Shown here: piece by piece, positions 7,885 through 27,254 of the stretch
Layout of the letters: each line of letters begins with the position of its first letter
Numbering within the stretch: position 1 is the first letter of the stretch
From: Thermoguttaceae bacterium
Lineage (GTDB): Bacteria > Planctomycetota > Planctomycetia > Pirellulales > Thermoguttaceae
Direction of reading: 5' to 3'
Length of the DNA: 64,000 bases
Assembly: GCA_025060325.1 (NCBI GenBank)
Contig: JANXBW010000011.1
Coordinates: 62,001-126,000, forward strand
Translations under genes and position numbers: made by a program
Notes under the pieces: model-generated
What the model was told of the DNA's origin: nothing
What the model saw: the letters and a program-made list of their open reading frames with translations, nothing else
Databases searched by the model: none

Positions 7885-10800
7885 GTGAAACGGTCGATCT
7901 GGCACTGGCTCGGCAAAGTGGTGTTGGGAAGAGGGGGCGTTCCCGCGGAAGGCCGGGGAACATTCAAAGCGGATACGGTTTCCCCAGGGAAGAATTCGCC
8001 ACGCAGTGCGAAAAGAGCTTCCGCTTGGGGGAAGGCTCGTCAACTATCGTTCGAGCCGCTCGAAGATCGTCAACTGCTCTCGATCCAATCAGTCACGTTG
8101 GGGATGGTTTATTTTGAGCCTGCCGCCGGCGAAGATGAGCAGCCTAACGTGTTCCATCTTAGCTTTTCCGGCGGGGCACCGGGCACAAGACTAACAGAGC
8201 TTGTCATCGACACTGACAAGCTAGGGGACGGATTGACAATCGGGGATGCCCTGTTTGACACCGCGCCGGGGGGTGGGCATGCATTCGCATCGGCTCCGCT
8301 GCGGATTGTCTCGCAGGAAGGTATCGATCGGGTTACGGCCGAAGTAAGTGACGGCGGGACGAGGTTCCGGCTTGTCTTCGACGGGTTTGAGGCCGGAGAG
8401 AAACTCGTCTTTTCCATCGATGTTGACGAAATGGGTTTTCTTGGCCCGAATGCGGTGGTAGAGGGAAACGAGTTTGAGGGATCGCTGCTCTGGGCCCGGT
8501 TTGAAGCGCCTCACTATTACGCTGCCGCCGGAACGGTTCGGTTCTTTGATGCGTTTGAGTTCCCGGCGGGGGTGGCCCTTCCCCTTCCCCCGGACACTTA
8601 TATGCCGCCTAGCGAGGTGCCGCTTCCGGTCCACACGGCAGGGGCAATTTTGGCGTTGGAACAGCTGCCGCTGCCTGCCTCGGTGGAAGGTGTAGTTTTT
8701 GAGGACGTGGACATAGATGGCCAAAGAGACGCCGGGGAGGCCCCCATCGCAGGAGTGGTGCTTGAGCTATGGCGCAAAGAGGGCGACAACTACGTACCCA
8801 CGGGACGCCGGGCCACCACAGATGAAAATGGGCATTATGTTTTCCGGGATATCTGGCCCGGTGTTTACCGAATTGTTGAGGTGCAGCCGGCCGGCTTTTT
8901 TAGCGTAGCGGCGATCCCGGGCAGCGTGGAGGGCCGAGCCTCAGGGAGGGCGGCTACGGTTAACGAAATTGTCGACATCGAGCTTCTCGGTGGCGAAAGA
9001 GGCGTGGACTTTGACTTTGCCGAGGCCCGACCGGCCTCCCTGCAAGGGGGTGTGTTTCACGATCGGAATGATAACGGCGAGTGGGATTCCGGCGAAGAAG
9101 GAATCGGCGGCGTATTGATTGTGGCCGAGTACGGGGGTCCGCTTTCCGGGGAGGACGTCCTGCAACGAGTCGAACTTCGCACCGGTCCGGATGGGGCCTT
9201 CCTGTTGACGGGACTTGCCCCTGGTTTGTGGTCACTGCGGGAAGTTGAGCCGAGCGGTTACTTCGACGGTAAAGATCACGTGGGAACAGCCGGCGGTCAG
9301 CGCGTGACAGGTGTGGACCAAGTCGTGGACATTTGGCTTGCCAGTGGTGCTGCCGGGCAAGACTATTGGTTTGGCGAACTTCTTCCGGCTAGTGTTAGTG
9401 GCCGGGTCTTTGCCGACCTTGACGGGGACTGCAAGCAAGGCCCAGGGGATTACCCGCTTGCTGGGGTGGTTATTTGGCTTCTTGATGCAGACGGTCTGCG
9501 GCTGACAAGCACGACGACTGATGCCGAAGGTCGGTACGTGTTCGATGGACTTAGCCCGGGAAAATACGGGGTTGAAGAGATCCAGCCGGCGGACTATTTC
9601 GACGCCGGTGTGTGTATCGGTTCAGCCGGCGGTAGATTGGCTGCTCCGGACCGAGTTATGGATATTGTTCTTCCTTCCGGAATAAGGGGCACGGAATACA
9701 ACTTTCGGGAATGGCCGCCGGGAAGTATAGCTGGCTACGTTTACGAGGATAGTAACGCCAACGGCCGCCGCGACCCTGGGGAACCGGGCATCGCAGGGGT
9801 GCGAATTCTTCTGCTTGACGAGACCGGTCGGCCTACCGGCCGAAAAACGGTCACCGACGCAAGTGGTGCCTTCGGGTTCGACGGGCTTGCCCCTAACCAA
9901 ACTTATGGGCTTCAGGAAATCCAGCCGACCGGTTACTTCGACGGCCGGGATGCGGCGGGCGATGGAGGCGGTAATGTTGATGACGAAAACGACCGGATTA
10001 CCGGTATCAGCGTCCCACCGGGCCAACATTTGCGGGAGTACCGCTTTGGGGAATTTCGACCGGCTTCCCTTTCCGGGTATGTGTTCGCCGACAGAAACGG
10101 CAATTGCCAGCTTGATGTGGGCGAACGGCCGATTGCCGGGGTGACGGTCGTTTTAGTGGATGCAAGGGGACAGCGGCTAGCCAGCATAGTTACCGATCAA
10201 GCGGGCCGGTGGGGGTTTGAGGGACTTCCTCCCGGTGTTTACGCGGTGGAAGAGATTCAGCCGGCCGGTTATTTTGATGGGCCGGAATGTGTCGGTTCGG
10301 TAGGAGGCTGGGTAGACGGCAACGACCGGATTGCCGGCATTAAGCTTCTGCCCGGGGCTGCTGCGGTCAACTACAAGTTTACGGAATGGGAACCAGCCCG
10401 AATCTCCGGATATGTGTTCCAGGATGGACCGGCGGTCCTATTATTCCCCGGTGCCACGCTTGATCCCACCCGCTTGGGCCGCACGGGTCAACGGGGACCC
10501 CAAGCAATTCCGCTCTCTGGAGTCATGCTTCGGCTAATGGATGCCCAGGGAAATCCCGTCCGCGATGGTGCCGGGCGCGAAATAACGGCCACTACCGATG
10601 GAAGCGGTTACTACGAGTTCGCTGGCCTTCCCCCGGGTACATACTGTGTTTACCAAGTGCATCCGTCAGGGTATGTGGACTGGATAGATACGCCGGGGAC
10701 GCACGGGGGCCTGGCCGTCAATCCGGGGCAACCTCTCGATCCGGCGATTCTGGAAACCTTGGCCACCGATCCTCGCAACGACGCAATCTTGCGGGTGGTA

Positions 10801-17763: not shown

Positions 17764-17987
17764 CTCCGGGATAAATTTTTCGACGAGGACTTCCTAGGCT
17801 AGCCATAAGGCGGGTCTATCGCCCTCCCTGGAGTGGCATGAAAATCGATAGCAACGGCCCCCTTTTTAAGCGAAAATCATGTGGGTTATTTCTCTCGAGA
17901 ATCTATGAGTAACACGCGCGGCGGACAGCCAAAGCGGAATCGTGCAAAGGAGGCCCCGGTCCGGAAATTCACATGGGAGGAATGACC

Positions 17988-18635
17988 ATGGGCGACTACT
18001 CTGATCTCTACCAGGCCATTCTCGAAGGCAATGCCAAGAAAGCTAAGGAGGCCACCGAGCGGGCACTGGCGGAGGGGGCCGATCCAAACGAGCTTATTGA
18101 TCGATACATGATCCCTGCAATGGACGAGGTGGGGCGGCGATTCGAGTGCCAGGAGTACTTCGTACCGGAGCTCCTCATTGCGGCACGAGCCATGGAGACG
18201 GCCCTTCAGATCCTCACGCCCCGGCTGGCCGAAGGTGGCGGACGTAAGGCTGGCAAAGTCATCATCGGCACCGTTAAGGGCGATATCCACGACATTGGCA
18301 AGAACTTGGTGGCCTCAATGTTAAAAGGCGGTGGCTTCGAGGTGTTGGATTTGGGCGTGGATGTCCCGGCCGAAAAGTTTGTCGAAGCCGTCGGCAATCA
18401 GGAAAATGTCATTGTCGCCATGTCCGCGCTGTTGACCACAACCATGGGGTACATGCGCGAGGTCATCAACGCACTCAAGAAGGCCGGGATCCGTGACCGC
18501 GTCAAAGTTATGATCGGCGGAGCGCCCATCTCACAGCGTTTTGCTGACGAAATTGGTGCCGACGGCTACAGCGAGAATGCAAGCGGGGCAGTGGTCTTGG
18601 CTAGGCGTTTGCTGGGGCTAGCATCGTCAGCTTAA
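17988..18635 (+). CDS. Corrinoid (cobalamin-binding) methyltransferase protein
   Basis: The 215-residue protein has an N-terminal helical cap (residues 1-85, DRYMIPAMDEVGRRFECQEYFVPEL) and a Rossmann-like B12 domain. GDIHDIGKN (98-106) supplies the lower axial ligand His101; the later GGAP and DGY elements complete the cobalamin site. It belongs to the MtaC/MtbC/MttC-like family that carries a methyl group as methyl-Co(III). The ATG at 17988 is chosen over ATGs at 17973 and 17982 because GGGAGG at 17975-17980 is the ribosome-binding site. It is the first of six same-strand genes for methyl transfer. No reductive activator (RamA/RACo type) is in the window, although such proteins are usually needed. 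Confidence 0.9.
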   Translation: MGDYSDLYQAILEGNAKKAKEATERALAEGADPNELIDRYMIPAMDEVGRRFECQEYFVPELLIAARAMETALQILTPRLAEGGGRKAGKVIIGTVKGDIHDIGKNLVASMLKGGGFEVLDLGVDVPAEKFVEAVGNQENVIVAMSALLTTTMGYMREVINALKKAGIRDRVKVMIGGAPISQRFADEIGADGYSENASGAVVLARRLLGLASSA

Positions 18636-18730
18636 AGTTCGCCGAAACTCATCTAGCGGGCAGCTTGTCGGCTGGTTGGCGGTGGCTAAGAGGGTGGCAA
18701 GGTCCGCTTTTTCGAGAGGATCGCAAGCCC

Positions 18731-19612
18731 ATGTCCGGAATCCCTGGGCTAATCATCATTGGCGAAAGCTTAAATGACTCTGTCCCCAGCACGCACGAGC
18801 TGCTGGAGCGGGGCGATTTCGACGGGCTTGTAGCCCTGGCATGTAAACAAGCAAGCGAAGGAGCCCACTACGTTGATGTCAACGTGGGGCAGCGCCAGCC
18901 GGAGCTCATGGCCGAGCTTGTCCGCCGCCTCCAGCAAGTCCTGGATCGACCACTGGTGATCGATTCGCCGGACAAACAGATTGCGGAGGCAGGCTTGCGA
19001 GCATACGATCCCGCTCGGGCTCGTGGCCAAAAGCCGATTCTTAACTCCGTGGCTCTGGGGCGGGTGCATATGCTCGAATTGTTAGCGATCCAGCCTTCGA
19101 AAGTGGTCCTTTTGGTTTCGGAGGCTGTCGCCGAGGGCCGAACGGTCCCTTGTCGAACGGCCGAGGAAAGCTATCAGGTAGCCAAAGAACTTGTCCGGCG
19201 AGTTCGGGAAACCGGCTTTCCCATCTCCAACGACGATATCATCATCGATCCCGGGGTGGTACCGCTGGCGACTGATTCCACCGGACAGCTAGCACGGGTA
19301 CTGGAAACGATTGCTCGCATTCGGGATGACAAGGACTTGGCGGGTGTGCACTTTGTTGTGGGGCTTTCCAATCTCACCGTAATGCTACCGTCCAAGCGGG
19401 CGGATGGCTCGCCGGTTAAAGGTCCCCTTCAGAATGCCTTTCTGACCAAGGCGGTTCCTTTGGGTTTAGACATGGTAGTGGCCTCGACCAGCCGGCAGTA
19501 CCAGTTCTTGCCCGCCGATCATCCGGCCATGCGGTGCCTTGAAGAATGCCTCGCCTGCCGGGGACCGCGAGCTATTGTCCGAATCCGTCAGTTTTACACG
19601 TCGGCCGGCTAG
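18731..19612 (+). CDS. Methyltetrahydrofolate:corrinoid methyltransferase-like protein (pterin-binding)
   Basis: The 293-residue TIM-barrel protein belongs to the pterin-binding (DHPS-like) family that includes AcsE/MeTr and MtgA. The N-terminus IIIGESLNDSVPS and the strand HYVDVNVGQ mark the pterin pocket, DIIIDPGVVPL follows, and GLSNLTVMLP matches the GLSN..LP element of MeTr enzymes. It would pass a methyl group between the corrinoid protein and tetrahydrofolate. ATG 18731 has GAGAGGA ten bases upstream. It follows the corrinoid gene by 95 bases and is likely in the same transcript. Direction of transfer (towards or from folate) cannot be read from sequence. Confidence 0.85.
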   Translation: MSGIPGLIIIGESLNDSVPSTHELLERGDFDGLVALACKQASEGAHYVDVNVGQRQPELMAELVRRLQQVLDRPLVIDSPDKQIAEAGLRAYDPARARGQKPILNSVALGRVHMLELLAIQPSKVVLLVSEAVAEGRTVPCRTAEESYQVAKELVRRVRETGFPISNDDIIIDPGVVPLATDSTGQLARVLETIARIRDDKDLAGVHFVVGLSNLTVMLPSKRADGSPVKGPLQNAFLTKAVPLGLDMVVASTSRQYQFLPADHPAMRCLEECLACRGPRAIVRIRQFYTSAG

Positions 19613-20012
19613 GGGGATTGGAGGAGGCTTTTCGTATACACCTGTGCCCAGCAAGAGAGGGCGACTCTCGCAAGATTTGCGAAGGGGCTGGCGACGTCGA
19701 GCTATTTATCCACTGAGGAAGAGTCCTGGCTCAGGTGAGAACGCGTTCTTGCCGCGGGGCCTTGAGTGCTCGACCTTTTGCCGGCCATAAAAAGGGGCGG
19801 CAGCCCTTTGAAGCCTGGCCCGCTCGATTGGCCTTTTGCAAACCAGCGATTTCTGGGCGGGCACACCGAAGGACAACCCTTCGGCCATAGCCGGAGGGAC
19901 AAGATTTTGGTTCAGAGAGAGGAAGAGGTGTCTGGGGCTTATCAGATTCTTAAGGGGGAGTTTTTCCGAGAGATTGGTGGGTATCTGTGGCTTAGCTGAG
20001 CGAGGTTCAGGC
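19613..20012. other. Spacer inside the corrinoid locus
   Basis: This 400-base gap contains no reading frame with a plausible product. I looked for cobalamin and SAM riboswitch signatures and saw none. AGCGAGG near 19998-20004 probably serves the next gene. Confidence 0.4.
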
Positions 20013-20903
20013 ATGCATCCTGTCATCAAGCAATTGACTGCCACTGGACCGGTAGTTTTGGACGGAGCTTGGGGTACGGAGCTTCAGGCGCGAGGGCTTC
20101 CGGTAGGAGTTCTGCCGGATATTTGGAACGTGGACAATCCTCAGGCGGTGTGGGAGGTCGCCCGAAGCTACGTGGAGGCAGGGAGCCAAATCATTTTAAC
20201 CAACACGTTCGGCGCCAATCGGTTTAACCTGAAACGCTATGGCTTGGATGATCGCCTGGAGGCGATTAATCGACAGGGAGTGGCCATTTCCAAGAAGGCA
20301 GCCAACGGGAAGGCTAAGGTCTTTGCGTCGGTCGGGCCTTCCGGGGCGATGCTTGTTTTGGGTGAAATCACTAACGAGGAGTTAGAAAACATCTTTGGAG
20401 AGCAGACCGCGATCCTCGCCGAGGCCGGCGCCGACGGCATCGTCGTGGAAACCATGTCCGATCTCACAGAGGCCCAATTGGCTGTTCGCGCTGCCAAGCG
20501 GACAGGGCTCCCGGTGGTTGCATGCATGGCTTTCCAGGCAGGCAAGAACTTCGATCGGACCATCATGGGCGTTTCCTGCGCTCAGGCGGCCCAAGGTCTG
20601 CTTGAGGCAGGTGCCGACGTGATCGGGGCTAACTGTGGTCGCGGGATCGAGAGTTTTGTTGATCTTTTGCGGCAATTTCGTCAGGTAACTTTAGCTCCGG
20701 TGTGGCTGAAGCCCAATGCGGGGATGCCGGAACTAGTTGAGGGCCGGCCGGTCTACCGGACGCTTCCCGAAGAGTTTGCCGCCCATGTTCCCCAGCTTGT
20801 GGCCGAAGGGGCCCAGTTTATCGGTGGCTGCTGCGGGACCAATCCGGAGTTTGTCCGCGCCATTTGCCGAGCGCTTGGCCGATCTGCTGCCGGCTGTGCG
20901 TAA
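20013..20903 (+). CDS. Homocysteine S-methyltransferase family protein
   Basis: The 296-residue protein is a complete Zn-dependent homocysteine methyltransferase domain. VLDGAWGTELQARG (15-28) is the N-terminal signature. ANCGRG (Cys208) and GGCCGT (Cys273, Cys274) provide the three zinc ligands that activate the homocysteine thiol. It lacks the folate and B12 modules of MetH, so it resembles BHMT/MtgB-like or stand-alone MetH N-terminal modules and would use an external methyl donor, possibly the corrinoid protein encoded three genes earlier. ATG 20013 follows GCGAGG; a longer frame upstream has no family similarity. Its stop lies 40 bases before the next gene, indicating co-transcription. 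Confidence 0.87.
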   Translation: MHPVIKQLTATGPVVLDGAWGTELQARGLPVGVLPDIWNVDNPQAVWEVARSYVEAGSQIILTNTFGANRFNLKRYGLDDRLEAINRQGVAISKKAANGKAKVFASVGPSGAMLVLGEITNEELENIFGEQTAILAEAGADGIVVETMSDLTEAQLAVRAAKRTGLPVVACMAFQAGKNFDRTIMGVSCAQAAQGLLEAGADVIGANCGRGIESFVDLLRQFRQVTLAPVWLKPNAGMPELVEGRPVYRTLPEEFAAHVPQLVAEGAQFIGGCCGTNPEFVRAICRALGRSAAGCA

Positions 20904-20943
20904 ATCGGGCTGAGCATTGTTTTCCGGGGAGGGGTATTCTTTG

Positions 20944-22155
20944 ATGACAAGCCGCGAGCGGGTTCTTACCGCGCTTAATCACCAGGAGCCGGACCGCATT
21001 CCGATCGATTTTGGCGGGACACGCGTCTCCGGCATTGCCGCAAGCGCCTATTATCGGCTTAAACAACACCTGGGTCTTCCTGGTCCGGCTCGGGTGTTTG
21101 ACCTTTTCCAAATGTTGGCCGAGGTGGAACGGCCCGTGATGGAGCGCTTCGGGGCGGATGTCATCGGGATTTACCGGCCGGTGGTGGTTTTTGGGATCCG
21201 CAACGAGCGCTGGAAGCCGTGGCAACTTTTCGATGGCACACCGGTGGAAGTGCCGGGCGACTTTCACCCGGTCCAGCGCGAAGACGGCAGCCTGCTTATC
21301 ATCTCACCGGACGGAAAGCCCCTAGCGATTATGCCCAAGGATGGTTTTTACTTTGATCGGCTGGAGGTTTTCCCGGGCGCTGCTCACGCTGATCCGGAAA
21401 CGCTTCAGCTTCCGCTTCTCACCCAGGAAGAATGTGACTTCTTGGCCGCTCAAGCCGAGGCTTACTACAACAACACGGATTTTGCCATTATCGTCCATTT
21501 GGGGCCACCGTATGAACTTTTCTTTAATTTGGGCACCGGCGATTTTGCCGCGTGGATGATCACCTTGGCCACCGAGCCGGATTATGTCCGCGCCTTGTAC
21601 GAGCGGCTGGTAGAGACATGGCTGGAGAACCTGCGGCGCCTCTATGCGGCTGTGGGCGACCGCGTGCAAATCATCCAGTTTAACGACGACTTAGGAACCC
21701 AGACGGCTCCCTTTATCTCCGTGCGGATGTTCCGCGAGCTCATTATGCCTTATTATAAACGCGGGCTCGACTGGATTCATCAACACACGCCATGGAAAGT
21801 GTTCATGCATAGCGACGGGGCAATTTTCGACTTTATCCCCAGTTTGATTGAAATGGGTGTGGATATCATCAACCCGGTGCAGACAAGCGCAAAGGGGATG
21901 GACCCGGCTCGGCTGAAGGCTGAATTTGGCGAGCGAATTGTATTCTGGGGTGGTTCGTGCGATTGTCAGCACACGCTCCCATTTGCTAGTCCGGAGGAAG
22001 TTGCCCGGGAAGTGGAAGAGCATATTCGCATCTTTGCTCCCGGCGGCGGCTACGTTTTCGCTCCTGTTCACAACATCCAGGCCAAAGTCCCGCCGGAAAA
22101 CATCGTGGCTTTATTCGACACTGCATTACGCATTGGTCGCTATCCCATCAGGTAA
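20944..22155 (+). CDS. Uroporphyrinogen decarboxylase-family methyltransferase, variant lacking the HxCG motif
   Basis: The 403-residue protein is a UroD/MtaA-fold TIM barrel with the opening MTSRERVLTALNHQEPDRIPIDFGG, typical of corrinoid-linked members rather than haem-pathway HemE. At the place of the zinc motif HxCG found in MtaA/MtbA it has HSDGA (His289-Asp291). A Cys pair, GGSCDCQH (C339, C341), occurs later. This pattern is common in a large uncharacterised subgroup found next to corrinoid proteins. It probably binds a methyl donor or the corrinoid protein; the substrate is unknown. Start ATG 20944 follows GGGGAGGGG. It is the fourth gene of the locus. Confidence 0.82.
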   Translation: MTSRERVLTALNHQEPDRIPIDFGGTRVSGIAASAYYRLKQHLGLPGPARVFDLFQMLAEVERPVMERFGADVIGIYRPVVVFGIRNERWKPWQLFDGTPVEVPGDFHPVQREDGSLLIISPDGKPLAIMPKDGFYFDRLEVFPGAAHADPETLQLPLLTQEECDFLAAQAEAYYNNTDFAIIVHLGPPYELFFNLGTGDFAAWMITLATEPDYVRALYERLVETWLENLRRLYAAVGDRVQIIQFNDDLGTQTAPFISVRMFRELIMPYYKRGLDWIHQHTPWKVFMHSDGAIFDFIPSLIEMGVDIINPVQTSAKGMDPARLKAEFGERIVFWGGSCDCQHTLPFASPEEVAREVEEHIRIFAPGGGYVFAPVHNIQAKVPPENIVALFDTALRIGRYPIR

Positions 22156-22498
22156 CAAATGATAAACCGCCGATGCACCGGCTAGCGGCGCAACAAACCA
22201 GAGAAGAATGGCCGCCTGAAGCGATAGCCCGCCGGGTACTTTGCAAGATAAACACAGTGTTATCGGGGAGCTCCATCACAGGATCGTGCAGGCCGGAGCC
22301 ATAAAACCGGCCCTTGTTGGAAATGAATGTGTAAAAAAGTCGGCGGCGATGGGTAAAATTGAAGAGCGAAGCAACTTTCGCGGGTCAATTGGCTGGGTTT
22401 GCAGATAACTTGCCGATTTGGGCCTGTGTCGGGCGTGGCCACCTCGAGCATAAGTAGCGTCAGGTAGCCCGGGGTTTACGCTTGATCGGGAGAGACGA
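22156..22498. other. Spacer with a GC hairpin inside the corrinoid locus
   Basis: No gene is seen. GGCCGG at 22291-22296 pairs perfectly with CCGGCC at 22307-22312 around an A-rich loop. The following bases are CTTGTTGG, too poor in T for a classical terminator. The hairpin may end or pause the transcript of the first four genes. Confidence 0.35.
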
Positions 22499-23269
22499 GT
22501 GCGCTTCAAGCTTATTGCATGCGAGATTTTATATCGGGAAGTATGCTGGGCGGTTTCACGCTCGCCCCATCGCGTGGACGTCACCTTCATGCCGAAAGGC
22601 CTTCACGACCTGGGGCAACCAGGGATGTTCTCCCGGCTGAAAAGCACCCTCGATGGCCTCGATCTGTCCGGGTACGACGCCCTCCTTTTAGCCTACGGTC
22701 TTTGCAACAACGGGATTGTCGGGCTGGTGGCGCGAGAAATCCCCCTCGTCGTTCCGCGGGCACATGACTGTATCACGCTCTTTTTCGGCAGCAAGGAACG
22801 GTATCTGGAGTACTTCTACTCGCACCCGGGTGTTTACTTTAAGACGACTGGATGGATCGAGCGCGGCGAATCCTTGGAGCAGCTCGGACCGCAATCGGTT
22901 CGTCGTCGCACGGGACTTGACATGACTTTTGAGGAAATGGTCGCCAAGTACGGAGAGGACAACGCTCGATACCTTTGGGAACAACTTCAGCTGTTCACGC
23001 ACCGCTACCATACCTTGGTTTTTATTGAAATGGGTATTGAGCCTGACGACCGCTTTGAACAGCAGGTGCGGGAAGAAGCGGCCCGCCGCGGGTGGAATTT
23101 TGAAAAGGTGCGCGGCGATCTGCGATTGATCCGCCAGCTTGTGGATGGCCAGTGGGACGAAGCGGATTTCCTCGTTGTGCCGCCTGGCTATGCCATCGCA
23201 CCAAGCTTCGATGAACGAATTGTGATCGCCGAACCGGTGGCGACAGCCTCGCCAAAACCTGCCGATTAG
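22499..23269 (+). CDS. DUF1638 protein
   Basis: The 256-residue protein starts at GTG 22499 behind GGGAGAGA. It has the DUF1638 features LLAYGLCNNG (residues 63-72) and PRAHDCITLFFGS (86-98). Together with Cys8 (IACEIL) and Cys16 they offer several Cys/His candidates for metal or corrinoid contact. DUF1638 genes are often near corrinoid methyltransferases in other genomes, and here the gene lies between two UroD-family genes. The biochemical role is unknown; a part in methyl transfer or B12 handling is inferred only from neighbours. No signal peptide. Confidence 0.82.
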   Translation: MRFKLIACEILYREVCWAVSRSPHRVDVTFMPKGLHDLGQPGMFSRLKSTLDGLDLSGYDALLLAYGLCNNGIVGLVAREIPLVVPRAHDCITLFFGSKERYLEYFYSHPGVYFKTTGWIERGESLEQLGPQSVRRRTGLDMTFEEMVAKYGEDNARYLWEQLQLFTHRYHTLVFIEMGIEPDDRFEQQVREEAARRGWNFEKVRGDLRLIRQLVDGQWDEADFLVVPPGYAIAPSFDERIVIAEPVATASPKPAD

Positions 23270-23733
23270 CCCGGCATTGGTTAAATCCTCAGCTCACGGT
23301 AACGACCAAGGGCCCCCGAATAAAACCAAATGTGTATGTTAAGCGCTCGGTGCAAGTCTTGCTGGGCGTTCCGATCATCCCTAGGCCGAAGTGCCGCGGT
23401 TAAACCTCATAAAGGAGTTGCTAGCATTCTGGGGAAAGCTGAGGTTGTTGCAGAAGGAGAGCTTTTCTGACAGGTAAGGAGCTAGCTGCGCCCTCGCGGC
23501 TACCGAGAAAGCGCCAAAGCTTCCGGCTCCCAGAGGAGGTGCGAAAGCACCATCAGTCGGCTTCCTCGGCAGACGACGTACACAAACTCCCTTGTAGCTT
23601 ATAGTGGCGTAAAACTTGTGCCTCGCGGAGGTGTACCTGTTTACTGGGGCGTACAAAGTAATTATCCCATAGCGCTGCGGTTCGGCGAGGAAGTCAGGCG
23701 GCGGGAAGAAGCAAGGCCAGAGGAGATCGAGGC
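23270..23733. ncRNA. Structured intergenic region, possible leader RNA of the second UroD-family gene
   Basis: No coding frame is convincing. Two compact hairpins stand out: TAGCTGCG (23483-23490) with CGCGGCTA (23495-23502) around CCCT, and GGTGC (23538-23542) with GCACC (23547-23551) closed by a GAAA tetraloop. They lie 185-250 bases upstream of the next start. I did not find the conserved cobalamin, SAM or TPP riboswitch strings. It could be a regulatory leader or chance folding of GC-rich DNA. Confidence 0.25.
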
Positions 23734-24753
23734 ATGAACGGCTACGAACGGATGAAGGCCATGCTGGAAGGTCGGCCTGTGGACCGGCTGCCGTTTACAC
23801 CCATCACCATGATGTTTGCCGCGGACCAGCGGGGCATTCCCTACGGCGAATATGCGACGGACTATCGCAAATTAGTCGACGCTCAGCTTTACACGGCGGA
23901 AAAGTTCGGTTTCGATTCGGTGATGAGTATCTCCGATCCGGCCCGCGAGGCTGCCGATTTAGGGGCGGCTGTATGCTTTTTCCCCAATCAGCCGCCGGCT
24001 CTGGACGAAAGTCATAGCCTCCTCCTGGACAAGAAGAAACTCCTCGAGCTAAAAGTGCCCGATCCTTGGTCGGGTCGCCGGATGCGGGATCGTCTTGAGG
24101 CCATTCGTCTGTTCCGGGAGAAGGTAGGGGGCCAATTATTTGTGGAGGGATGGGTCGAAGGTCCAATGGCCGAATCGGCCGATCTTCGCGGCATCAATCG
24201 TATTATGACCGACCTTTATGACGATCCTGCCTTTGTTCGGGATCTTTTCGAGTTTGTTGTGGAAATGGAGACGCGATTTGCTTACGCCCAGATTGAGGCA
24301 GGAGCCAACCTGATCGGGATCGGGGACTCCGCCGCCTCTCTGATCGGTCCCCGCTTCTATCGCGAATTTGTCGTGCCTTACGAAAAGCGTTTGATCGACA
24401 ACATTCACCAAAAAGGGGCATGGGTGAGGCTTCACATCTGTGGCCGAACCGGTCCAATCCTTGCTGACATGGGCCAAGTGGGCGCTGACATTATCGATCT
24501 TGATTTCCCCGCATCGATGGCCGAGGCTCGCCAAAAGATGGGACCTCGCCAGATCTTGTGTGGGAATATTGATCCGGTACGGGTGCTCCGCGACGGTACC
24601 CCGGAGCAAATCAAAGCTGAGCTTGAGCACTGTTATCAGGCCGCTGCTCCCCACTACATTGTCGCCGCCGGTTGCGAGGTTCCTCGCGATACCCCCGAGG
24701 CCAACATGAAAGCCATGCTCGAATTTGCGAGGACTCATCGGCCATACGAGTAG
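23734..24753 (+). CDS. Uroporphyrinogen decarboxylase-family (MtaA/MtbA-like) methyltransferase
   Basis: The 339-residue protein is of normal length for MtaA/MtbA methylcobamide:CoM methyltransferase-like proteins. It has the zinc motif HICGRT (His234, Cys236) and a third ligand candidate in AAGCEVP (Cys314), with LCGNIDP (Cys276) between. These features are expected of enzymes that activate a thiol for methylation by methyl-corrinoid. Bacteria usually lack coenzyme M, so a different acceptor is likely. ATG 23734 follows GAGGAGATCGAGGC. It closes the corrinoid locus after a 464-base structured gap, and the gene after it is convergent. Confidence 0.85.
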   Translation: MNGYERMKAMLEGRPVDRLPFTPITMMFAADQRGIPYGEYATDYRKLVDAQLYTAEKFGFDSVMSISDPAREAADLGAAVCFFPNQPPALDESHSLLLDKKKLLELKVPDPWSGRRMRDRLEAIRLFREKVGGQLFVEGWVEGPMAESADLRGINRIMTDLYDDPAFVRDLFEFVVEMETRFAYAQIEAGANLIGIGDSAASLIGPRFYREFVVPYEKRLIDNIHQKGAWVRLHICGRTGPILADMGQVGADIIDLDFPASMAEARQKMGPRQILCGNIDPVRVLRDGTPEQIKAELEHCYQAAAPHYIVAAGCEVPRDTPEANMKAMLEFARTHRPYE

Positions 24754-26480: not shown

Positions 26481-27254
26481 ATGGAGAAACAAGTACTGAT
26501 TATGCCCTGTTTGGACATGCAAGCCGGGCGCGTCGTAAAGGGTGTCAAGTTCGTCGACATCCGCGACGCCGGCGATCCGGTCGAGTGTGCTAAGGCCTAT
26601 TGTGCAGCCGGTGCTGATGAGCTTGCGATGCTGGACATCACGGCCACTGTTGAAAACCGTCGGCCGCTGCTTGATGTGGTCAAGCGCGTCGCAGACGTCA
26701 CGACTGTGCCATTTACGGTGGGCGGTGGTATTGGCGACATTCCCACGGCTGTGGCTGTGATGGAATGCGGTGCTACCCGAGTGTCGGTGGCTTCGGCGGC
26801 TTTCCGCCGTCCCAAGTTCATCAGCGAGCTGATTAGCGAGTTTGGCCCCGAGCGGGTGGTTGTGGCGATTGACGTGGACCGCAACCCCAATCTGCCCTCA
26901 GGCTACGAAGTTTACATCGACGGTGGCCGGACTGCGACCGGAAAAGACGCGGTGGAATGGGCGAAAGAGGTGGCCTCGTACGGTGTGCGGATCATCCTGC
27001 CGACCAGCAAATTCGCCGACGGCATGCAGCAAGGTTTTGACCTGCCTCTCATCAAGCTCCTCAAAGAAGCCACTTCGGCAACGATTGTCGCCTCCGGGGG
27101 GGCCGGGAATATGGAGCACTTTTACGAGGCCGCCATGGCCGGCGCCGAAATCCTTTTGGGTGCTTCGGTCTTCCACTTTGGCATCGTGAAGATCCCGGAA
27201 CTCAAGCGCTACTTGAAGTCGCGGGGAATTAACGTCCGGTTTAACGGCGCCTAA
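26481..27254 (+). CDS. hisF: Imidazole glycerol phosphate synthase cyclase subunit HisF, divergent
   Basis: The 257-residue (beta/alpha)8 barrel has the HisF catalytic acids Asp12 (CLDMQAGRVVKG) and Asp131 (VVAIDVDR), the FTVGGGI phosphate loop and the second phosphate loop VASGGAG. HisF with HisH makes imidazole glycerol phosphate and AICAR in histidine synthesis. It departs from the norm at several places: AIDVDR replaces AIDAKR, VSVASAAF replaces VSINSAAV, and TSKFADGMQQGFD replaces the usual TSMDRDGTKxGYD loop. It could be the true HisF of this lineage or a HisF-like paralogue with another substrate. AAAGGAG precedes ATG 26481. It stands alone behind a folded leader; no hisH is adjacent. 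Confidence 0.8.
   Translation: MEKQVLIMPCLDMQAGRVVKGVKFVDIRDAGDPVECAKAYCAAGADELAMLDITATVENRRPLLDVVKRVADVTTVPFTVGGGIGDIPTAVAVMECGATRVSVASAAFRRPKFISELISEFGPERVVVAIDVDRNPNLPSGYEVYIDGGRTATGKDAVEWAKEVASYGVRIILPTSKFADGMQQGFDLPLIKLLKEATSATIVASGGAGNMEHFYEAAMAGAEILLGASVFHFGIVKIPELKRYLKSRGINVRFNGA

Follow-up and report, generated by a model that had tools for sequence, protein, structure and literature searches.

What would a planctomycete do with six genes for corrinoid-dependent methyl transfer set side by side? The question is raised by a locus in the window, a stretch of 64,000 nucleotides from a Thermoguttaceae bacterium (assembly GCA_025060325.1, called G000 here; contig JANXBW010000011.1, positions 62,001 to 126,000). 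A sequence-only reading had seen there, on one strand, a corrinoid protein, a pterin-type methyltransferase, a homocysteine methyltransferase, two different UroD-family proteins and a DUF1638 protein, and had described them as a demethylation route whose two possible outlets are folate and a thiol. A Pfam scan of the window confirmed all six families, each far above its cut-off and on the + strand, and the two outlets are supported by the modules called MtgD and MtgE below. We give a probability of roughly 0.5 to the reading that the locus is a second, split corrinoid-dependent methyl-transfer system making methionine, with one UroD-family protein, UroB, as the enzyme that loads or unloads S-methyl groups. 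The six genes are:

17973..18635, + strand: MtgC-like corrinoid-binding protein (methyl carrier), start 17973 or 17988; PF02607 and PF02310
18665..19612, + strand: MtgD-like pterin-binding methyltransferase (folate side), likely start ATG 18731 (or TTG 18665); PF00809, 61.5 bits
20013..20903, + strand: MtgE-like homocysteine S-methyltransferase, start ATG 20013; PF02574, 2.5e-66
20944..22155, + strand: UroA, divergent UroD-family protein with His-x-Asp and without the second Cys, start ATG 20944; PF01208, 87.4 bits
22499..23269, + strand: DUF1638 protein, putative B12-reactivation partner, start GTG 22499; PF07796, 115.5 bits
23734..24753, + strand: UroB, MtaA-like UroD-family protein with a His-Cys-Cys site, predicted corrinoid:thiol (S-)methyltransferase, start ATG 23734; PF01208, TIGR01463 163.8 bits

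Several starts in the open reading frame (ORF) table were over-long, among them TTG 19836 for MtgE. From MtgC to UroB, the genes are separated by 95, 400, 40, 343 and 464 bp; with such gaps they need not share one transcript, and an operon is not proven. A pattern scan found no more promoters or terminators in the window than in shuffled sequence. No Rfam riboswitch reached the gathering score in the window or in 16 loci, which gave only two tRNAs and one sRNA at that score and a single loose match at chance level. The order MtgD-MtgE-UroA-DUF1638-UroB was found again in another genus (genome G167), with mostly shorter gaps, and the six-gene array is therefore no chance line-up.

MtgD aligns with the acetogen methyltransferase MeTr (2yci), and its D97, N124, D192 and N233, which we take to have a folate role, are invariant in nine aligned sequences. 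MtgE aligns with the homocysteine domain of Thermotoga maritima MetH (1q7m) and keeps the NC and GGCC stretches, presumably the zinc cysteines. In MtgC, D99, H101 and G104 of the DxHxxG corrinoid motif are invariant in 17 aligned proteins. Its score of 216.4 bits with TIGR02370, which describes corrinoid proteins cognate to methyltransferases (cut-off 215.3), disfavors a cobalamin storage protein by a margin of about 1 bit only, and three relatives (loci L143, L182 and L071) fall just below that cut-off; the earlier assignment to a methyltransferase component held to this extent. The distribution of PF02574, PF00809 and PF02607 plus PF02310 over three separate proteins is that of the split methionine synthase of Phaeobacter inhibens (Price et al. 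2018, PMC5764234), where the synthase shared its fitness pattern with two further proteins, one RamA-like (DUF4445) and one of the DUF1638 family; for the latter the authors offered no specific role. In Ruegeria pomeroyi the parts are named MtgC, MtgD and MtgE (Mausz et al. 2025, PMC12478193), and MtgC and MtgD also act there in glycine betaine demethylation together with the MTTB-family protein MtgB. The window MtgC stays below the NCBIfam models of glycine-betaine MtgC (NF047996, 224.3 against 370 bits; NF047995, 197.2 against 310). As the Phaeobacter MtgE homologue alone uses dimethylsulfoniopropionate and betaine in vitro (PMC12366255), MtgE itself might take other donors as well. Sequence comparison thus supports homology to a genetically characterized system for the methyl carrier, for both the folate and the homocysteine module, and for the two activation proteins. 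The core module is already known in print; the UroD proteins are what is new.

The sequence-only reading had noted that no reductive activator was evident and had proposed a genome search for RamA/RACo. This was correct for the locus but not for the genome, in which RACo_C_ter has a single match, unlinked to the locus (G000:C18:52761-53531), in a protein of 666 aa that also contains 2Fe-2S, RACo-middle and ASKHA domains and is adjoined by a LysR regulator. With its one copy of DUF1638, the genome holds both reactivation proteins of a split synthase. Among 392 planctomycete genomes, 46 contained DUF1638 and 133 contained RACo; RACo was present in all 46 DUF1638 genomes against 87 of the 346 without DUF1638 (Fisher p 5.6e-25, kinship ignored). 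In 15 of 46 loci, the fetched stretch with DUF1638 also contained RACo. In genome G352, one 803-aa frame (L102:9489-11897) joins DUF1638 to Raco_middle and RACo_C_ter, and in four genomes (G098 and G010, of one genus, G145 and G114) DUF1638 shares a frame with Hydantoinase_A domains (L093:9745-12558, L096:9550-12360, L068:4162-6966, L090:2-2065). Hydantoinase_A, like RACo, is among the ASKHA ATPases. Because of these natural fusions and the co-occurrence with RACo, the data point to DUF1638 working directly with an ATP-driven activator. For alphaproteobacteria, the co-occurrence was reported by Price et al. (PMC5764234), and the planctomycete counts carry it into a further phylum.

Across 41 sequences, C8, C69, C91 and His36 of DUF1638 are invariant and His89 nearly so, a set that could bind a metal or cluster. 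The structure model of the protein is confident (mean predicted local distance difference test, pLDDT, 92.6) and gave no Foldseek match at E <=0.001. The best VIA match, a LacI core (Z 7.1, root-mean-square deviation (r.m.s.d.) 3.8, 140 aligned), and comparisons with glutamate, aspartate and allantoin racemases (Z 6.2-6.7) were at the level of unrelated models, and no function was drawn from them. DUF1638 had no match in plasmids or in PHROGs, and neither DUF1638 nor UroA had one in PADLOC. In three planctomycete loci, next to DUF1638 and RACo, MtgC and a UroD protein are separated by a CobW-type GTPase (L091:2515-3453, L094:3685-4575, L106:11140-12036); the UroD protein has F-C-C at the ligand positions in L094 and L106, the two that were scored.

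Does the organism need such a synthase? Its genome encodes a complete 1250-aa MetH with activation domain (contig C33), and no MTTB (PF06253) donor methyltransferase was matched in it or in G167 and G357, which bears out the earlier remark that no primary methyl donor is evident. Since MetH is present and an MTTB match absent, the locus is a second system without a recognized donor enzyme. PF02965 is also present in G167, and the 46 DUF1638 genomes include 20 with PF02965 and 12 with MTTB. Genome G357 comes from the same family and has a completeness rating of 99%. It encodes DUF1638, RACo, MtgE and UroB as well as a small corrinoid protein and a stand-alone MtgD; there UroB adjoins DUF1638, MtgE lies on the opposite strand at a distance of about 2.4 kb, and neither a PF02965 (Met_synt_B12) match nor a MetH-length frame with the B12 cap domain was found. 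With the parts present and a MetH match absent, the split enzyme can plausibly serve as methionine synthase in G357; in the window organism it would be additional. Two further UroD-family genes of the window genome lie outside the locus: a divergent one adjoins the MetH gene on the same strand (L018:5749-6816, contig C33), and another lies beside a second corrinoid protein on contig C23 (L019:8256-8912 and 9401-10597).

UroB resembles MtaA (match to 4ay7, E 2.2e-26), and its H234, C236 and C314 align with the MtaA His-Cys-Cys residues, which we take to be the three zinc ligands of that enzyme. It scored under the cut-off of the MtaA/CmuA model TIGR01463 (163.8 against 235.4 bits; UroA, 23.8) and far below that of the HemE model TIGR01464 (88.3 against 302.95 bits; UroA was not listed), and the best PF01208 match of the genome lies elsewhere, on contig C11. 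The His-Cys-Cys set is present in 88 of 92 UroB-like proteins, the other four having F-C-C and forming a separate clade. Phylogenetic placement, which the sequence-only reading had proposed for both UroD proteins, placed 21 chosen UroB sequences in one clade with full support (100/100), separate from HemE and from the other UroD proteins of the genome, in a tree with several long outer branches. A scan with six UroB query sequences yielded at least 104 confirmed loci, of which 80 were kept; among the matches listed, loci have 55-64% identity and their records are labelled Planctomycetota, Verrucomicrobia, Acidobacteria, Hydrogenedentota, Lentisphaerae, Chloroflexi, Deltaproteobacteria and Arcobacter, labels that were taken as given, metagenome-assembled genomes (MAGs) included. 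In the superfamily, His-Cys-Cys marks S-methyltransferases (S or Se) and a carboxylate substitution at the ligand site marks O-methyltransferases (Kountz and Balskus preprint, PMC10418091). From its ligands and gene neighborhood, we infer that UroB is an S-type methyltransferase, an entry or exit for S-methyl groups.

UroA is more divergent, with a match to URO-D only and to no closer family model. Its ligand positions read His-x-Asp, with Val where the last Cys would be; the same holds for four proteins from loci L088, L122, L123 and L167, with which it forms a 100/100 clade of five members, all from planctomycete records. By the published ligand rule UroA would be no S-methyltransferase; it may act on an O-methyl substrate or have lost methyl transfer. 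Its model, only fair in confidence (mean pLDDT 68.5), has the UroD fold (VIA Z 24.9, r.m.s.d. 3.5, 305 aligned). The fold does not choose between HemE-like and MtaA-like, HemE chains reaching up to Z 24.9 and MtaA 22.8, within about 2 Z of each other.

The neighborhood of UroB ties it to the core module in many genomes. Within 8 kb of UroB, the 80 loci contained DUF1638 in 27, MtgC in 27, MtgE in 26, RACo in 19, UroA-like genes in 19 and MtgD in 4; at least one of MtgC, MtgE, DUF1638 and RACo was present in 42 loci, at least three in 20 and all four in 11. DUF1638 directly upstream and RACo directly downstream of UroB, on the same strand, were found in 11 of 80 loci. MtgE precedes DUF1638 in eight of these (L143 from Aquisphaera insulae, L154, L161, L164, L171, L180, L182 and L183), five of them with MtgC just ahead of MtgE, and MtgC takes the place of MtgE in L145, L163 and L173. 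The full order MtgC-MtgE-DUF1638-UroB-RACo also appears in another planctomycete (L071). Once antisense frames, UroD paralogues and the core genes themselves were discounted, the most frequent neighbors in 85 loci were an oxidoreductase (9/85) and an ABC-transporter ATPase (5/85), on mixed strands, and no constant uptake or degradation partner appeared among the neighbor families of these loci. The clustering of neighbor ORFs was blurred by antisense and merged frames; five of the smaller clusters, annotated by representatives, were the oxidoreductase (9 loci), the ABC ATPase (5), two UroD paralogues and a sulfatase. A Pfam scan covered 20 of the 68 unlabelled neighbor ORFs, and alignment of 55 of the 68 was uninformative.

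MtgD, scarce next to UroB, is also scarce in the genomes that carry it. For 27 genomes picked for UroB plus core genes (G000, G167, G357, G306 and 23 reached via loci), a B12-cap match in a frame of at least 1100 aa, the length of MetH, was found in 21, only shorter frames (845 and 678 aa) in two and no such frame in four. A stand-alone MtgD-like protein was present in six (G000, G167, G357, G394, G395 and G407) and was not found in the other 21, in a search confined to the MtgD-like family among folate methyltransferases (MtrH-type proteins, for example, lie outside it) and in genomes where MAG gaps may hide genes. The strong MtgD match lay inside the MetH frame in 20 of those 21, and G393 had none; seven genomes had additional weak matches of 22-37 bits, which were not counted, being presumed dihydropteroate synthases. 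Most carriers therefore have MtgC, MtgE and UroB without a dedicated folate partner visible to the model used, and on this basis the simplest reading is a shuttle between homocysteine, served by MtgE, and another thiol compound, served by UroB.

In the mechanism we propose, MtgC would hold the methyl group on its corrinoid, MtgD would exchange it with methyl-tetrahydrofolate and MtgE would hand it to homocysteine, while DUF1638 and the unlinked RACo would bring back Co(I) after oxidation. UroB, with its zinc His-Cys-Cys site of S-type, would load or unload MtgC with the methyl of an S-methyl (or Se-methyl) compound, and this exchange would allow methyl groups to reach methionine without passing via folate. 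UroA could be a further entry enzyme for another substrate class, O-methyl by its ligands, or act without methyl transfer. The methionine-synthase role of MtgC, MtgD and MtgE and the involvement of RamA-like and DUF1638 proteins were shown by others in proteobacteria and would hold here by analogy; the substrates of UroA and UroB and the direction of transfer are what we infer. More tentatively, and with doubt prevailing, UroB, MtgC, MtgE, DUF1638 and RACo may form a folate-free corrinoid shuttle from a methylated thiol or selenol to methionine, beside MetH, in Planctomycetota, Verrucomicrobiota, Acidobacteriota and several other phyla.

Two rivals keep the core module and assign the UroD genes differently. 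The locus could simply be a split methionine synthase fed by folate, as in Phaeobacter, running from MtgD over MtgC to MtgE with DUF1638 and RACo, the two UroD genes being accessory or unrelated; all five published parts are in the window genome, and G357 has the parts without a MetH match. We consider this unlikely, as UroB recurs by core genes across phyla, DUF1638, UroB and RACo are directly adjacent in 11 of 80 loci, and 21 of 27 carriers had no detected stand-alone MtgD-like protein, 21 of 27 having a MetH-length frame. Alternatively, UroA and/or UroB could demethylate an external compound and MtgD pass the methyl group to folate for oxidation, like MtgBCD with a UroD enzyme in place of MtgB. 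R. pomeroyi uses MtgBCD in this way (PMC12478193), the UroA ligands are O-type by the published rule (PMC10418091), and in G171 a single cluster (L064:3184-18285) contains RACo, MtgC, an MtgD-like protein, DUF1638 and several UroD genes together with MTTB and an MTHFR-like protein, an example of these parts combined with a catabolic set. UroB is usually accompanied by MtgE rather than MtgD (26 against 4 of 80), no constant uptake or degradation partner emerged, and such a catabolic role seems quite improbable for the locus.

Several observations weigh against a methionine-making unit that includes UroB, and some of them would suit independent genes that merely lie side by side: gaps of 343-464 bp within the set, RACo unlinked to it, MtgC outside the cluster in G167, and 38 of 80 UroB loci, many on short contigs, with no core neighbor within 8 kb. 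Even among the 32 loci with at least 8 kb on both sides, 11 had no core genes. The conserved MtgD-MtgE-UroA-DUF1638-UroB order in another genus and the recurrence of MtgC/MtgE-DUF1638-UroB-RACo line-ups in several phyla make a mere juxtaposition very improbable. Other points touch the role of UroB and of folate: UroB and the three relatives scored all fall below the MtaA/CmuA cut-off; the window genome has both MetH and MtgD, so a folate-fed role may apply there; and the complementarity of MetH and stand-alone MtgD (MtgD in three of four genomes that lack MetH and in three of the 23 that have it) is a small effect, tested post hoc (p 0.025) in genomes that are not independent. Downstream of the locus, a HisF-like protein (window 26481-27254) scored slightly under the HisF cut-off (270.3 against 294.55 bits).

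How far is the locus described already? The sequence-only reading had called it a possibly undescribed pathway of planctomycetes; for the core module neither part is supported, since MtgC, MtgD and MtgE with DUF1638 and a RamA-like activator are in print (PMC5764234, PMC12478193) and UroB relatives are labelled in several phyla among the matches listed. Like the window genome, the split synthase of P. inhibens and R. pomeroyi in these reports has its corrinoid, pterin and homocysteine modules on separate proteins, accompanied by DUF1638 and an activator of the RACo/RamA type; the window genome differs in having a full MetH, no MTTB/MtgB match and two added UroD-family proteins, and the UroB genomes in that the stand-alone folate module was not found in 21 of 27. 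Classical MetH, whose modules are homologous to MtgC, MtgD and MtgE, is one polypeptide with its own activation domain and a separate gene in the window genome. The MtaA/MtbA methylcobamide:coenzyme M methyltransferases have fold family and aligned His-Cys-Cys in common with UroB, which scores below their family cut-offs. Type 1 mlp clusters share the frequent lack of a folate methyltransferase; as described, they hold at least Mlp2 and Mlp3 and occur in obligate anaerobes, 73% Firmicutes (PMC10418091). Compared by description, the window has one His-Cys-Cys UroD protein with MtgE and DUF1638, and the relatives of its UroB are labelled Planctomycetota, Verrucomicrobiota, Acidobacteriota and others, unlike the Firmicutes-rich Type 1 mlp clusters. 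Judged mostly from titles and the starts of abstracts, the literature showed no paper that we recognized as describing the MtgC-MtgE-DUF1638-UroB-RACo gene group.

This recurrent gene group ties split methionine synthases to mtaA-like clusters, outside the lineages studied before. DUF1638 gains a testable context from its co-occurrence with RACo, its fusions to RACo- and hydantoinase-type domains and its three invariant cysteines. Should UroB indeed bring in S-methyl groups, an unrecognized route from methyl-sulfur or methyl-selenium compounds to methionine would exist in bacteria of several phyla.

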